The notes under the pieces are model-generated. The model saw nothing but the letters and a program-made list of their open reading frames with translations. It was not told where the DNA came from and made no database searches. DNA of 37,483 bases from Oscillospiraceae bacterium (GTDB taxonomy: Bacteria > Bacillota > Clostridia > UMGS1810): assembly GCA_015069095.1 (NCBI GenBank), contig SVJH01000020.1:1-37483 (forward strand). Reading direction: 5' to 3'. Position 1 is the first letter of the stretch, and each line of letters opens with the position of its first letter. Made by a program: the position numbers and the translations under genes. Shown piece after piece: positions 31,717 to 37,483 of this stretch.

Positions 31717-32503
31717 AGTTAGTGATGTGATTTCTGTTATTGAAAATATCGCACCTTTATCTTTTGCATGTGAATGGGACAATGTCGGACTTCTTATTGG
31801 CAACAGGGAAACTACTGTAAAAAATGTTCTTCTTACGCTTGATGTTGATGAATTTGTCGTGGATGAAGCAATCCAAAAAGGTTGTAATTTAATATTATCG
31901 CATCATCCTCTTATATTTCATCCAGTTAAAAGATTAAATGAGGAAAATATATCAGAAAAAGTAATTATGAAGCTAATTAAAAATGATATTAGTTTGTATA
32001 GTGCTCATACAAATCTTGATGTAGCGCCGGGCGGTCTTAATGATTACATGGCGTCAAAACTTGAGTTGAATAACACAAAGATACTTGAAATATCAGGTGT
32101 TAGTGATAAAGGTGAATACGGGTTTGGTCGTTATGCAGTACTTGATGCACCACTTACAATGAATAAGATTATCGAGAAATGTAAATCTGTATTTAATTTA
32201 AATGTTTCAAAATTTGTAGGAAATCCGGATGATTTAATAAGAACCGTTGCAGTTAACTGCGGTGGTGGAGCAGGTAGCATAGACAGTTGTTTTAATAAAA
32301 ACATCGATTTATTTATAAGTGGCGATTTTAAATATAATATTTTGCGAGATGCTTATGAGAACAAACTAAATGTAATTGACGTGGGACATTATAATAGCGA
32401 GCATATTGTAATTGATTTATTTTATGAAATATTATCAAAAAATCTTACTGATATAAACTTAACAAAAAGTGAAAAAAATATTGATTTTATAAAATATTTA
32501 TGA
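31709..32503 (+). CDS. NIF3-like dinuclear metal-center protein (YqfO group)
   Basis: Member of the NIF3/DUF34 family, hexameric proteins with a two-metal site and no firmly agreed substrate. Metal-binding segments: EWDNVGLLIG, LSHHPLIFHPVKRL, YSAHTNLDVAPGGLND, and the C-terminal DVGHYNSE. At 264 residues it is the short form without the central insertion found in B. subtilis YqfO. The GTG at 31709 is chosen because GGAGGGAAG lies just upstream and this places the normal N terminus. Confidence 0.92.
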   Translation: MYKVSDVISVIENIAPLSFACEWDNVGLLIGNRETTVKNVLLTLDVDEFVVDEAIQKGCNLILSHHPLIFHPVKRLNEENISEKVIMKLIKNDISLYSAHTNLDVAPGGLNDYMASKLELNNTKILEISGVSDKGEYGFGRYAVLDAPLTMNKIIEKCKSVFNLNVSKFVGNPDDLIRTVAVNCGGGAGSIDSCFNKNIDLFISGDFKYNILRDAYENKLNVIDVGHYNSEHIVIDLFYEILSKNLTDINLTKSEKNIDFIKYL

Positions 32504-32837
32504 GTAAACTAAATAGTCGCAGATACAATTCGAAAGAATGTATATGAGGAAAGTCCGGGCATCACAGGGCAGGGTGCCGGGTAACTCCCGGTGGAGGCAA
32601 CTCTAAGGAAAGTGCAACAGAAAAGAACCGCCGTAATTACGGTAAGGATGAAAAGGTGAGGTAAGAGCTCACCGCTGATTGGGTAATCAATCTGGCGTGT
32701 AAACCCCACTCGATGCAACACCGCAAAAAGAGAATTATATTTGCCCGATATCTCTAAAGGTGGCTTGAGTTATACAGAGATGTATAACCTAGATAGATGA
32801 CTATTTTAAACGACAGAACCCGGCTTATTGTTTGCTC
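32502..32837 (+). ncRNA. rnpB: RNase P RNA, probably A-type
   Basis: Catalytic RNA that trims the 5' ends of tRNA precursors. Universal core elements are visible: GAGGAAAGTCCGGGC near 32547, GTGCAACAGAAA near 32613, GTGTAAACCCCACTCGATGC near 32697 and GACAGAACCCGGCTTAT near 32812. Helix P1 pairs GAGTAAAC (32502-32509) with GTTTGCTC (32830-32837), and P2 pairs ATAGTC (32513-32518) with GACTAT (32799-32804). The GUAAACCCCAC region looks A-type rather than Bacillus B-type. The 5' end falls inside the NIF3 stop codon, so the RNA either uses a promoter within that gene or is processed from its transcript. Confidence 0.95.
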
Positions 32838-32854
32838 ATTTATATGAATTTATC

Positions 32855-32893: not shown

Positions 32894-32950
32894 ATTTGAT
32901 GAATATAAGTAATTTTAGAGAAAATGAAAAACGAAAAGCTAAAAGTACAA

Positions 32951-32994
32951 AAAGAAACGACAATTTTCTTATCGAAAGTTGTCGTTTCTTTTTT
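32951..32994. terminator. Long bidirectional hairpin terminator beside the tRNA-Pro fragment
   Basis: An 18-bp stem (arms 32951-32968 and 32974-32991, one G-U pair) with a 5-nt loop. T-runs follow on both strands. On the minus strand it starts right after the encoded CCA end of the tRNA fragment, so it is most simply the original terminator of that tRNA gene. Confidence 0.85.
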
Positions 32995-33039
32995 GGTCGG
33001 AATGACAGGATTTGAACCTGCGACCTCTGCGTCCCGAAC
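32994..33039 (-). pseudogene. 3' half of a tRNA-Pro(CGG) gene, probable attachment-site remnant
   Basis: Read on the minus strand, this segment contains the anticodon loop TTCGGGA (anticodon CGG), the 3' anticodon strand, an intact T-arm (GCAGG TTCAAAT CCTGT), the 3' acceptor strand and an encoded CCA. Upstream of the loop (above 33039) the D-arm and 5' acceptor strand are absent and the 5' anticodon strand no longer pairs properly. A tRNA cut precisely at the anticodon, with its own terminator still attached, is what remains on the chromosomal side after an element integrates into a tRNA 3' end. It cannot be a working tRNA as it stands. Confidence 0.85.
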
Positions 33040-33249
33040 ACGCTCTAAAGCCTGATATATAGCGGTTTTTGCTTTTTTTAGCCCTTTCCGCTACATTCAA
33101 CATACTCTTTGGACATCTTATCTCCACTGTTTCCATATACTCCAGATCTAACTGTGGGATAACATGTGGTCAAAAACATTATCCGCATTAAGATTTTCCT
33201 AATGGAATTATAACATGTAGTACATGGAATTTCTGGAATTGTCAATAAA
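33040..33249. other. Non-coding accessory stretch between the tRNA remnant and the insertion sequence
   Basis: No convincing gene. On the minus strand there is an extended -10 sequence (TGTTATAAT at 33207-33215), overlapped by the perfect palindrome CATGTAGTACATG (33214-33226), and three copies of GGAATT at 33204, 33226 and 33235. A 55-codon minus-strand frame starts at 33136 and runs through the tRNA remnant to 32969; I do not recognise its product. It is probably the end of the integrated element, later split by the insertion sequence. Confidence 0.5.
33246..33249. repeat. Target-site duplication TAAA, left copy
   Basis: TAAA at 33246-33249 matches TAAA at 34529-34532 immediately outside the other end of the insertion sequence. 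IS3-family elements typically duplicate 3-5 bp. Confidence 0.65.
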
Positions 33250-33288
33250 TGTATAGTCGAGCATCACGCGAAATTTTTGATATCGAGT

Positions 33289-34197
33289 TTATGCAGCTTG
33301 TTTTAAATGCTGTTTGCGATATTCAACCGGAGGTAATCCTGCCGGGTTGAAACTGGTAATTCTTAATGTGTTGTAATAGGCAAATATATATCTGAATACA
33401 ACTCTTTTGACTTGTTCTTTTGTCATTGTATGAGTAGGCAGACGGTATATTTTTTCTTTTTTAAGTGTGGCAAAGAAGCTTTCCATTCTTGCATTATCAA
33501 AGCATTTTCCTGTGCTACTCAGACTTTGTATCATTCCGTACTTTGATAATATAGAACGAAATGCATCACTCGTATATTGACATCCTCTATCACTGTGGAG
33601 TATTACACCCTGAAGATTGCCATATCTTTGCTTTAATTGATTTACGGTATCTATGCACAATTCCTTTTTCATATTATCTCTCATTTCAAGTGCCACAATT
33701 TCTCCGTTGTAGCAATCGAAAATTGGAGATATATACACTTTACCATCGCTGCATTGCACTTCGCTGATATCTGTAAGAAGCTTGGTTATCGGATATTTTG
33801 AAGAAAAATCTCTTTTAATAATATTTTCCTTTTCCTGAACCTCATCGGTTACTTTGGTAATACCATGTGGAGTTCTGCGATAGTGTAGCAAATGACCTTC
33901 TTGCATAGCACGATATACAGTTCTGCGACTGCATTTAATTTCTTTTTGATTTAATGCGGTTTGTATTCTGTCAACACCGTAATTATCATTATCAGGATGT
34001 TCATTAAGTGTATTTTGAATTTCGACCAAAAGAAGTTTGCGCTTGCTTAATTTATCACGGTTCTTTAACCAACGATAATATTCCGATTCATTAGCATTAA
34101 GTACTTTACAAAGCCGTTTTACGGTATATCTATGTTTGTTATTTAAAATATATAAATAACGCTCACTTGCTTTTACTTCTTTCGGTCTTTGGCGAAA
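33289..34197 (-). CDS. IS3-family transposase OrfB (DDE integrase core), made by -1 frameshifting
   Basis: Catalytic half of the transposase. Reading on the minus strand from the slippery site at 34200-34194, the frame is open for 302 residues. An N-terminal HTH_21-like region (RYTVKRLCKVLNANESEYYRW, given here as two blocks RYTVKRLCKVL and NANESEYYRW) leads to YGVDRIQ. The rve/DDE core follows, with catalytic Asp in LLTDISEVQ, Asp in LHSDRGCQYTS and Glu in NARMESFFATLKKE. There is no good independent start, so it is most likely produced only as an OrfAB fusion. Confidence 0.9.
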   Translation of the reverse strand, partial: FRQRPKEVKASERYLYILNNKHRYTVKRLCKVLNANESEYYRWLKNRDKLSKRKLLLVEIQNTLNEHPDNDNYGVDRIQTALNQKEIKCSRRTVYRAMQEGHLLHYRRTPHGITKVTDEVQEKENIIKRDFSSKYPITKLLTDISEVQCSDGKVYISPIFDCYNGEIVALEMRDNMKKELCIDTVNQLKQRYGNLQGVILHSDRGCQYTSDAFRSILSKYGMIQSLSSTGKCFDNARMESFFATLKKEKIYRLPTHTMTKEQVKRVVFRYIFAYYNTLRITSFNPAGLPPVEYRKQHLKQAA

Positions 34198-34466
34198 AAA
34201 CCGAGTGCATCCTTTAGAATTTCATTAGCTTGCTTGAGTTCCATATTTTCTCTTTCAAGCTCACGAATACGTCTTTCTTCAGGAGTTTCAGGTTCTTTAT
34301 GTTTCATAATTGATACGCCTGTTTTACGCTCAATATTGCGTTTGCACCGCCAATTAGAAGGAGTATAGTATGGTAATCCTAATTGATTAGCAGCTTTTCT
34401 TAATCCAATTTCATCGGATAATCGAAGCGCTTCTTCTCTGAATTGATCACTGTAAGTCATCGGCAT
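34173..34466 (-). CDS. IS3-family transposase OrfA (HTH and leucine-zipper subunit)
   Basis: DNA-binding half of the transposase: an HTH_Tnp_1-type helix-turn-helix (YSDQFREEALRL, AANQLGLPYYTPSNWR) and a C-terminal coiled coil (RRIRELERENMELKQANEIL). The ATG at 34466 lies eight bases after AGGTG; an in-frame GTG at 34475 is less well placed. The last codons overlap OrfB, and the run T_TTT_TTC near its end allows the -1 shift that joins the two frames. Confidence 0.9.
   Translation of the reverse strand: MPMTYSDQFREEALRLSDEIGLRKAANQLGLPYYTPSNWRCKRNIERKTGVSIMKHKEPETPEERRIRELERENMELKQANEILKDALGFFAKDRKK
34194..34200 (-). promoter_or_regulatory. Programmed -1 ribosomal frameshift heptamer T_TTT_TTC
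   Basis: On the minus strand the OrfA frame reads GGT TTT TTC GCC; slipping back one base gives TTT CGC CAA, which opens OrfB. The heptamer has the X_XXY_YYZ form used by many IS3-family elements. Confidence 0.8.
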
Positions 34467-34492
34467 TTGATTCACACCTTTCTGATTTTTCT

Positions 34493-34521
34493 ATTATATC
34501 AGAATTTCGTGTCTTTGTCGA
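34493..34521 (-). promoter_or_regulatory. Transposase promoter within the insertion sequence
   Basis: On the minus strand TCGACA (34516-34521, within the terminal repeat), a 17-bp spacer and TATAAT (34493-34498), about 27 bp ahead of the OrfA ATG. Confidence 0.7.
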
Positions 34522-34528
34522 CTGTACT

Positions 34529-34777: not shown

Positions 34778-35845
34778 ATGGACTATATGACTGCAAGAGA
34801 AGCAGCTGATAAATGGGGCATATCCCAAAGACGAGTTGCTGTGCTGTGTTCTGAGAATAGAATAGAAAATGCCGCGCGGTTGGGAAATATGTGGATTATC
34901 CCTAATAACGCCGAAAAGCCAATCGACGCAAGAAGCACTCGATACAACATGAGTACCGATAAATGCGTTAAGCCATTTCTAAAATGGGCAGGCGGAAAAG
35001 GTCAGTTGATTAGGGAAATTGAAAAATATTATCCATTCGGATCAACAATAACTAAGTATGCCGAACCCTTCGTAGGCGGAGGTGCTGTTCTCTTCGATAT
35101 ATTAAACAAGCACAAAGTTAATGAAATATATATTAGCGATACAAATGCCGAACTAATAAATGCATATAAAATAGTAAGAGATAGGATTGATGAACTAATC
35201 GAGTTACTTCAAGCATATCAGGCAGAGTATATACCCCTTACTACTGAGGAAAGAAAAGAATACTATATTAGAAAAAGAGAATCATTCAACGAACTAAAGG
35301 TAAATGGGAATGAGAAAACAAACATTGAAAAAGCAGCACTGATGATATTCCTTAATAAGACATGCTTTAATGGATTGTATCGAGTGAATAAAAAGGGATT
35401 ATTCAATGTCCCAATGGGTTCTTATAAAAATCCTATGATATGTGATGAGGATAACCTAAGAAGGGTATCTTGTAAACTTCAAAATGTAACAATAGTGTGT
35501 GGAGATTACAGAGAGTCAAGAGACTTCATTGATGAGAATACATTCGTGTACTTCGATCCGCCATATAGACCGATAACGGATACAGCAAGCTTTACTGCCT
35601 ACACCGAGAACTTGTTTAACGATGAAGAGCAAATAGAACTTGCAAGATTTGTAGATGAAATGCATAAAAAAGGAGCTAAGATAGTCGTAAGTAATTCTGA
35701 TCCTAAAAATTCAAATACAGAAGATGACTTCTTCGATAATATCTATAAAGCACATAAAATCAAAAGGGTTGAAGCTACGAGGATGATAAATTGCAATAGC
35801 GAAGCTCGTGGCAAGATTAGAGAATTGCTAATATCAAACTACTAA
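34778..35845 (+). CDS. Dam-family DNA adenine methyltransferase with fused N-terminal HTH domain
   Basis: Type II N6-adenine methyltransferase, probably GATC-specific. Residues 1-55 form a helix-turn-helix of the MerR/excisionase sort (MTAREAADKWGISQRRVAVL, ARLGNMWIIP). The methyltransferase begins around residue 62: FLKWAGGKGQLI, SAM motif AEPFVGGGAVLFDI, the Dam-like target-recognition stretch RVNKKGLFNVPMGSYKNP, and the catalytic DPPY at about residues 260-263. The 355-residue total equals a Dam protein plus about 65 residues. An AAGGAG precedes the ATG. The HTH may let the enzyme repress its own promoter; that is inference. The next gene is the matching nuclease. Confidence 0.93.
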   Translation: MDYMTAREAADKWGISQRRVAVLCSENRIENAARLGNMWIIPNNAEKPIDARSTRYNMSTDKCVKPFLKWAGGKGQLIREIEKYYPFGSTITKYAEPFVGGGAVLFDILNKHKVNEIYISDTNAELINAYKIVRDRIDELIELLQAYQAEYIPLTTEERKEYYIRKRESFNELKVNGNEKTNIEKAALMIFLNKTCFNGLYRVNKKGLFNVPMGSYKNPMICDEDNLRRVSCKLQNVTIVCGDYRESRDFIDENTFVYFDPPYRPITDTASFTAYTENLFNDEEQIELARFVDEMHKKGAKIVVSNSDPKNSNTEDDFFDNIYKAHKIKRVEATRMINCNSEARGKIRELLISNY

Positions 35846-35915: not shown

Positions 35916-36560
35916 ATGAAATTAAGAGATGCACAAGATAAAATATTAAGAATATGTAATATACCATTCTCGGAATTATTTACTGAGGCGGATTTTGAAA
36001 CTATAATTAAAAACAAGGGTAAAACAGGACAGTTGCTTGAATTAGCTCTTGGCAAGAAATTGGACAGCTTCAATATAGACTTTGAAGACGGAGAGTTAAA
36101 AAGCAATAAATGTGATAGAAACGGAAAGCCATTGGAGACAGTTTTCATTACACAAATAGCAAGCGTAATTGATGAGCTTCTTGAAGAAAGACCATTTCAA
36201 GAAACGCATCTTTATGAGAAAATCTCAAATATGCTCTATGTTCCTGTTTGCAAGGAAGGAAATCCAAGAGATTGGATGTTTTTAGATGCAATACATATTG
36301 ATTTGTCAAAACCGGAATATTCGGAATTTTTGGATATTTGGGAAGAGGATTATTATTCTATTTGCAGACAATTAAAAGAACACATTGAAACAAGTTCGGA
36401 TGGATATATTCATACATCAAATGGAACGCATATTCAAGTGAGAAGTAAGGATTCAAAACCATATCATCCGATATACTCACATAAATACGGTAGATATGTA
36501 TCCAATAAAAATCACGCTTTTTATTTTCAAAAGCAATTTGTTTACGATGTAAGGAAATGA
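35916..36560 (+). CDS. MutH/Sau3AI-family type II restriction endonuclease, probably cutting GATC
   Basis: Cognate nuclease of the preceding methyltransferase. The MutH-type core is visible: KGKTGQLLELALG (catalytic Glu in GQLLE at residue 42), a downstream Asp at 55 or 58 and the ExK pair E60-L-K62, then NGKPLETVFITQI, which corresponds to the ET-rich strand of Sau3AI and MutH. At 214 residues it has one catalytic domain, like MutH and unlike the two-domain Sau3AI, so it would need to act as a dimer. The Asp-to-ExK spacing is shorter than in E. coli MutH. GGAGG precedes the ATG. GATC specificity is inferred from the family and the Dam-like partner. Confidence 0.85.
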   Translation: MKLRDAQDKILRICNIPFSELFTEADFETIIKNKGKTGQLLELALGKKLDSFNIDFEDGELKSNKCDRNGKPLETVFITQIASVIDELLEERPFQETHLYEKISNMLYVPVCKEGNPRDWMFLDAIHIDLSKPEYSEFLDIWEEDYYSICRQLKEHIETSSDGYIHTSNGTHIQVRSKDSKPYHPIYSHKYGRYVSNKNHAFYFQKQFVYDVRK

Positions 36561-36577: not shown

Positions 36578-37483
36578 ATGAGCACTTGTCACTTCTGTAA
36601 AAACGAAATAACCGAATCAAAATTTATGTTATTGAACGATATGATATATAAATCATGTCCTGGTTGTTCAAAGAGCGCAGGGATGCACGTGTTTTATAGT
36701 TGCCCGGAGCTGTTCGGGTGTGCTCCTACTCGTGCTAATAAAAGCAACCCCCTTGGATTACAAAGTCATTGTGCACCTTGTCGTTCAGAGAAACAAGGGC
36801 CTCACGAAAATGCCGTACTGTGTTCGCAGGCCAAAGAACTCAGCGGTTATGTAATAAACGAAGTACGTATTTTGCCTATGAGTACAGATGTGTTTGGCAC
36901 CTATCTGGAGGCCCGCGCGTTCTTGTTGAGTACAATGCCGAGCAGAGGTAATACATATTATTTCAAAACGTCAAAAATGAACTGCCCTGAAAACACACTG
37001 GTATTTTTTCAGTGTGGTGGTTGCTTGATAGGTTATGCAATACACTTAAAAACGGTATTACTCGAAAACCCAGTTACGCTTGAAGACGGAGAAATCTATA
37101 ACGGATACTACCAATTTGCTGAAAATTCGGTGACACTATTTGAAAAACTTATAGGAAAAGAAAAAATGGTGGAGATATACCCTGAATTTAAGACATTCAA
37201 TCAAAGTCATCAATTTCTTCCGGTAGCAGTCTTGCCTGCAATTTTTAGCGAATTAAACGCAAAAAGCGGGTTTGTTAAATCCTATATGCAAAACAACTTA
37301 CCAGAAGAAATTGCTGATGAGGATATACAGAAACTTAAAGAAGGTACAAAAAAGACTATTACAGTTAATGCGTATGAACGAAACGATAAGGCGCGCAGGC
37401 AATGTATCAATTATTATAAGAAGAAAAATGGCGGCGTTGTAAAATGTGAAATATGTGGATTTAATTTTGGAAAGACGTATGGA
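36578..37483 (+). CDS. Zinc-finger protein with a C-terminal HNH nuclease domain, candidate modification-dependent endonuclease (3' truncated)
   Basis: The frame opens with an ATG at 36578, has GAGG nine bases upstream and stays open for 302 codons to the window edge. Residues 1-82 carry paired cysteines (C4/C7, C27/C30, C42/C48, C65/C68) that suggest two zinc sites. Residues 90-185 hold VINEVRILPMS, RGNTYYFKTSKMNCP and NTLVFFQCGGCLIGYAI, a pattern like PUA/EVE-type folds that in other nucleases read modified bases. Residues 264-302 (VNAYERNDKARRQCINYY, VKCEICGFNFGKTYG) are the start of an HNH domain; the His-Asn-His part lies beyond the edge. GC-richer codons near 36660-36920 differ from the core genes. 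Third gene of the defence cluster. The middle domain is the least certain assignment. Confidence 0.8.
   Translation, partial: MSTCHFCKNEITESKFMLLNDMIYKSCPGCSKSAGMHVFYSCPELFGCAPTRANKSNPLGLQSHCAPCRSEKQGPHENAVLCSQAKELSGYVINEVRILPMSTDVFGTYLEARAFLLSTMPSRGNTYYFKTSKMNCPENTLVFFQCGGCLIGYAIHLKTVLLENPVTLEDGEIYNGYYQFAENSVTLFEKLIGKEKMVEIYPEFKTFNQSHQFLPVAVLPAIFSELNAKSGFVKSYMQNNLPEEIADEDIQKLKEGTKKTITVNAYERNDKARRQCINYYKKKNGGVVKCEICGFNFGKTYG

Follow-up and report, generated by a model that had tools for sequence, protein, structure and literature searches.

A tRNA-Pro(CGG) gene cut in its anticodon loop as the probable right end of a mobile defence island in Clostridia

Results

The window, which is the whole stretch of 37,483 nucleotides analysed here, is the entire contig C31 of a draft MAG (G000; 2.06 Mb, 46 contigs, 97.9% complete), and the sequence to the right of position 37483 cannot be read since the contig ends there. 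On the minus strand, positions 33039 to 32994 read GTTCGGGACGCAGAGGTCGCAGGTTCAAATCCTGTCATTCCGACCA, the undamaged 3' half of a tRNA-Pro(CGG) gene from tRNA position 31 to the CCA. This half comprises the anticodon loop TTCGGGA with CGG, the 3' anticodon strand CGCAG, the T arm, the acceptor strand CATTCCG, the discriminator A and an encoded CCA; behind it stands a hairpin terminator (32949-32993, minus strand), just as the initial annotation had described it. The same annotation held the 5' half to be replaced by unrelated DNA, and this too was borne out: the sequence 5' of tRNA position 31 is non-tRNA, ARAGORN found no tRNA gene in the window, and a tRNA-Pro profile aligned with the 3' part only (model positions 23-77 in one run, and 22-77 with E=1.7e-11 in a second). 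The terminator is of a repeated type, near-identical AAGAAACGACAATTTTC...GTTGTCGTTTCTT hairpins being present on contigs C30, C1, C37 and C20 of G000, in some cases next to tRNA genes.

The half gene forms the host side of the right junction (attR). Just outside the junction lies housekeeping DNA, with the class A RNase P RNA gene rnpB (32501-32842, plus strand; RF00010, 285 bits) and then homologues of Nif3 and TrmK, in a gene order common to relatives. A search of the whole MAG returned 38 tRNA genes, among which the sole intact proline tRNA was a TGG gene on contig C21; neither an intact tRNA-Pro(CGG) nor a second copy of the 3' half of about 45 bases was found in assembled G000.

On the other side of the break are an insertion sequence and restriction genes, as had been proposed. 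The IS3-family element (33250-34528, minus strand; orfA 34173-34475, orfB 33289-34029) lies within the island and is present as a single copy in G000, and its ends are approximate, the short terminal repeats GTATAGTCGA and GTACAGTCGA having been read by eye. It is followed on the plus strand by a Dam-family adenine methyltransferase gene of the D12 class (34778-35845; PF02086, E=5e-64; TIGR00571, E=3e-88) and by a gene for a MutH-like endonuclease (35916-36560; NF003458, E=1e-12, below the curated cut-off of the model), which is the probable restriction partner of the methyltransferase. The last cargo gene (36578-37483, plus strand) is cut by the contig end and gave no Pfam match; its product bears a terminal CxxC motif which, read by eye, could begin an HNH domain.

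The DNA that directly adjoins the half gene was observed to be conserved. The sequence just upstream of it (GAGCGTGTTCGGG...) also precedes tRNA-Pro halves in the relatives G004 and G032, and the 21-base word TATATATCAGGCTTTAGAGCG from it was found in seven contigs of MAGs named as Clostridia, Oscillospiraceae or Ruminococcus, several of them from deer and goat guts. In all seven the word adjoins a tRNA-Pro 3' half, each with an acceptor strand and terminator of its own. Alignment with more distant finds delimited a right arm of about 135 bp (33040-33176, minus strand; nhmmer E=1.5e-43) that includes a TTTTTGACCACATGTTATCCCACAG box and in which the boxes TTTTTGACCACAT..nCCACAG and GGAAACAGTGGAGATAAGA (the latter at 33116-33134, minus strand) are near-invariant and keep a constant spacing to the anticodon loop of the tRNA-Pro, be it CGG or TGG. 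A TTTGACCACAT box at 33164-33174 (minus strand) is a candidate arm-type integrase site, and the same motif recurs in the left arm described below and downstream of the element-borne tRNA. One frame of the 135 bp is open, and it was considered as a degraded integrase C-terminus; this reading was rejected because fixed boxes and spacing with variable sequence in between fit a recombination site better.

Among 391 sampled genomes of the class, a sequence-only model detected the right arm in 25 (about 6%), which represent 23 genera. In local scans, nearly every stronger match directly adjoins a tRNA-Pro 3' half that lacks a 5' half, the half being the genome's own split gene (CGG or TGG). That the same end stands at tRNA-Pro halves of other species supports the earlier proposal of an island attachment junction at this site. 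A viral collection gave no match for two arm patterns and one contig that matched the box, and a plasmid collection gave no match for the arm. The TGG-type end was seen on two short contigs of a phage collection. On contig IMGVR_UViG_2924261002_000004 (L107:3298-3467), a TGG-type element end that comes with a PDC-S53 helicase lies directly against the 3' terminus of a gene for a large serine recombinase; another mobile element thus sits beside the tRNA-Pro half there.

Isolated tRNA-Pro 5' halves were likewise detected with the tRNA-Pro model when 20 arm-positive genomes were scanned, and the one in G000 lies at C38:28649-28688, downstream of a gene which reads by eye as prolyl-tRNA synthetase (proS) and about 80 bases from the end of contig C38. 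ARAGORN reports no tRNA at either junction taken alone; when C38:28649-28679 is joined to window positions 33039-32994, it reports a tRNA-Pro(cgg) which is identical at 77/77 positions to the intact gene of G008. Both halves of the host gene, within which attB lies, are thus recovered and together give a perfect tRNA-Pro(CGG), and this match makes mis-binning of C38 unlikely. C38 also supplies, within G000, a junction to match the one in the window. The sole sequence common to the window junction and the junction at C38:28680 is the 9-bp core GTTCGGGAC (33031-33039, minus strand), which contains the anticodon loop TTCGGGA, the presumed 7-bp overlap. Among the nine genomes in which both ends were found, 104 of 108 acceptor and anticodon stem positions are Watson-Crick paired between halves of the same genome. 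Shuffled halves pair on average at 79.6 of 108 positions, and among 362,880 permutations only the true pairing reaches 104. An empty site at the same locus was not found for G000, the fetched flanks of relatives' intact Pro(CGG) genes not being syntenic with C38.

Beyond the core, C38 reads ACGATACTAACCAATTCGCAAGTATCC..., the left arm of the element. The initial annotation had predicted that the 3' part of the gene would be duplicated and the tRNA rebuilt at this end, which is contradicted by the run of C38 from GTTCGGGAC straight into this non-tRNA arm. The left arm is identical at 66/66 positions to that of G004, a member of a different genus, whereas the host 5' halves of the two differ at 6 of 31 positions. 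Left arms that are identical across genera while host halves differ, together with the wide recurrence of the right arm, argue that the element is mobile.

In relatives with longer contigs, the left arm spans about 150 bp, and beyond it comes a whole tRNA-Pro gene with terminator (CGG in G292:C22 and G362:C6; TGG versions in G286, G041, G204 and G006). The anticodon of this element-borne tRNA is that of the split host gene. Apart from the element-borne tRNA, only CGG and GGG proline tRNAs were found in G286, G041 and G204, so that the element supplies the sole TGG found there. A complete tRNA-Pro(CGG) sharing about 45 bases with the half gene had also been expected; assembled G000 holds no such second copy, and what relatives carry is this separate whole tRNA-Pro. 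Since C38 stops 80 bp past the core, before the corresponding point, a spare tRNA-Pro(CGG) is not in assembled G000 and would lie in the assembly gap of the window's own element. A clear promoter was not apparent ahead of the element-borne tRNA, which may therefore be transcribed from the host promoter through the 5' half.

Two copies were recovered on single contigs, each bounded by a host 5' half with the element tRNA and a right arm with the host 3' half: G286:C12 825565-787834 (37.7 kb) and G041:C19 25652-48104 (22.4 kb). Both encode two adjacent tyrosine recombinases of about 400 and 450 aa, with about 40% mutual identity, which read toward the tRNA. The pair is also found on the same contig as a right arm in G318:C7, and part of it lies beside the CGG-type left end in G292:C22. 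In the class sample, four of five genomes that carry a close intA relative are arm-positive, against 25 of 391 overall (p=6e-5). The pair was not found in assembled G000, and 21 of the 25 right-arm genomes lack a close intA relative, which implies that the window's element may be non-autonomous or may use another recombinase. Beside right arms a single recombinase was found, 2.4 kb beyond the half in G318:C61 and related to an int on G000:C43; it was set aside when the tandem pair turned up at left ends.

The G286 copy further encodes a MobP3 relaxase (E=3e-111) along with its two integrases and is a candidate integrative and mobilizable element (IME); no such set is assembled in G000. Among the scanned genes of the two complete copies, which include the recombinases, defence genes and the MobP3 gene, no phage structural match was obtained. 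The other cargo is mostly concerned with defence, with Ssp/Dnd phosphorothioation genes in G286, with pPIWI, a retron-type reverse transcriptase and type II restriction-modification in G041, and with the candidate defence systems PDC-S01 and PDC-S53 in further copies. The reverse transcriptase (L175:4316-5365, equal to G041:C19:38316-39365; PADLOC RT_I-B, E=4e-98) shares its island with the pPIWI gene and the type II set. Separately, a GADYDGD motif resembling the one in RNA polymerases of the RdRp/YonO type was noticed in proteins encoded by cargo genes of G326 and G286 and by related pieces in L076 (L097:1-1521, L147:16386-17735, L076:1-537). A conserved partner of about 280 aa adjoins the gene in L097 and L076. 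Pfam gave no match for the G286 protein, nor did PADLOC or NCBIfam for the L097 protein.

Several loci point to nested insertion. Contig G032:C4 shows a host 5' half, a left arm, a second 5' half interrupted at the same base, and the start of a further left arm; it is this second, element-type 5' half, not the host one, that fully pairs with the 3' half behind the right arm on G032:C12. In G362:C25 a right arm, core, left arm and tRNA follow one another as an element-element joint, and two right-arm junctions without a recombinase between them stand 5.4 kb apart in G204:C108 (with one gene) and 3.9 kb apart in G049:C28. These nested and joined copies indicate that newcomers enter the tRNA gene of an element already in place, with recombinase-free units piling up on the right.

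Discussion

These observations, all of which come from draft MAGs and include a window copy whose middle is missing, point to position 33039/33040 as the attR of a mobile defence island which has split the host tRNA-Pro(CGG) gene at its anticodon loop and is of a type that brings a spare tRNA, a reading to which we assign a probability of about 0.88. The element would integrate into the anticodon loop, probably by means of a tyrosine recombinase, and recombination across TTCGGGA within GTTCGGGAC would split the gene, leaving the 5' half downstream of proS on C38 and the 3' half beside rnpB in the window, with neither junction rebuilding the host tRNA. Inside the left end, past the arm of about 150 bp, a complete tRNA-Pro with the same anticodon would take over the lost function; after it would come the cargo, which in the window is the Dam/MutH-like restriction-modification set, and last the conserved right arm of 135 bp. 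The attB site would be CTGCG-TTCGGGA-CGCAG, i.e. anticodon stem and loop, and the predicted attP would be GCGTG-TTCGGGA-CACGA with the inverted core CGTG/CACG. Motifs of the TTTGACCACAT type in both arms would suit a tyrosine recombinase that binds arm-type sites, and a circular form should carry the joint right arm - TTTAGAGCGTGTTCGGGACACGATACTAACC - left arm. Later copies can enter the anticodon loop of an earlier copy's tRNA and so give rise to nested arrays. Since the islands of relatives carry a complete spare tRNA-Pro, the host would survive the cut and come to depend on the island, whose tRNA would be both transcribed and required.

Compatible with this explanation is the possibility, which we consider somewhat short of even, that the window holds a non-autonomous cassette, mobilised in trans by recombinases that another family member encodes. 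The recombinase-free units between two junctions in G204 and G049 and the lack of a close intA relative in G000 would agree with this. Against it, the place which the recombinases occupy in autonomous copies, next to the element tRNA, is the very part missing from the G000 assembly.

A conventional tRNA-targeting island, in which a 3'-half copy brought by the element rebuilds a complete tRNA at the other end, would also use the anticodon loop, a usual site of tyrosine integrases, and in G293 and G049:C24 an intact tRNA-Pro in a chromosomal tRNA cluster is indeed followed by recombinases, with no left arm. In G000, however, the other junction leads from GTTCGGGAC into the left arm rather than into a 3' half, of which the genome has no second copy, and we consider this alternative improbable for the window. 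Still less probable is a degenerate remnant, i.e. a tRNA-Pro(CGG) pseudogene broken by an unrelated rearrangement or IS, and harmless since tRNA-Pro(TGG) can read CCG. An intact tRNA-Pro(TGG) is present in G000 and the IS3-family element is only 200 bp away, but the IS lies outside the arm, both halves are undamaged and fit perfectly, and a break at the same base with the same 135-bp arm recurs in many species and unrelated genomes. That an assembly or binning artefact fused unrelated sequences is hardly credible, for although the MAG is in 46 contigs that break at both element ends, the same junction occurs in independently assembled MAGs of different projects, on contigs of up to 1.2 Mb, and halves of the same genome match.

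Returning to the split-gene island with a spare tRNA, its closest precedent is tRNA-dependent lysogeny in mycobacteriophages (Fionnbharth and others), in which the core is of about 10 bp, the host tRNA is not rebuilt and the phage tRNA is required (Guerrero-Bustamante and Hatfull 2024, PMC10865867). The copy in the window resembles it in its 9-bp common core GTTCGGGAC and in a tRNA that is rebuilt at neither junction. That precedent, shown for phages of actinobacteria, concerns temperate phages at tRNA-Lys and other tRNA genes, for which the need for the tRNA has been tested, and its authors ask how common it is elsewhere (PMC10865867). The present family, in contrast, consists of Clostridia defence islands (one with a MobP3 relaxase) at tRNA-Pro CGG or TGG genes, has its spare tRNA adjoining the att site, undergoes nested insertion into that tRNA, and is known from sequence. 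Tandem accretion has been described for IMEs and CIMEs, where mobilizable elements at a tRNA gene form tandem arrays with integration-gene-free units between att sites (PMC5704250); there the targets stay intact, whereas here the tRNA is split and only that of the newest element is whole. Islands of the anticodon-loop class share with the present family an overlap region formed by the loop and inverted-repeat core sites formed by the stem, but they rebuild an intact tRNA at one junction, which the window's copy does not (PMC8371274).

The present family hence combines tRNA-dependent integration with tandem accretion, in defence islands. Integron cassette arrays grow at one recipient site, by short units of one or a few genes, and do not hold a recombinase in every unit. 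The likeness of the present family to integrons lies in its working only; each of its units brings a whole tRNA, and neither attC hairpins nor IntI were identified in it. We found no relevant literature on cassette-array or split-tRNA islands.

The wider proposition, whose chances we regard as evenly balanced, is that Clostridia defence islands make themselves indispensable by cutting a host tRNA-Pro gene (CGG, or a sole-copy TGG) and supplying the only working copy, and that their nested arrays grow much as integrons do, every new island splitting the tRNA of the one before it and taking over its role, so that old recombinase-free cassettes become locked behind the newest tRNA. Such islands would persist because a random loss of the island also loses a proline tRNA. 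In the present family tRNA-dependent integration appears outside phages, in defence-carrying islands of about 6% of the sampled genomes of one Clostridia class, and nested insertion into an element tRNA gives a simple rule for array growth. Island finders that rely on a rebuilt tRNA or a long direct repeat are prone to overlook such elements or to misplace their ends; the elements can be located directly by their conserved arms and paired tRNA halves, which also allow contigs to be joined across them.

The conventional appearance of G293 and G049:C24 suggests that the family may mix two modes. The former (L184:6781-9950, G293:C9) combines intact tRNA-Ser and tRNA-Pro(CGG) genes with an arm motif and the recombinase pair; no host 5' half was observed upstream, and the locus may represent a member of the family that rebuilds its tRNA in the conventional way. 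Another variant (L101:7160-9900, G015:C114) is a 2.6-kb unit with an ATPase (PDC-S01) after an intact tRNA-Pro; there the right arm is truncated and runs into another copy of the tRNA terminator hairpin, which looks like the outcome of recombination between terminators.
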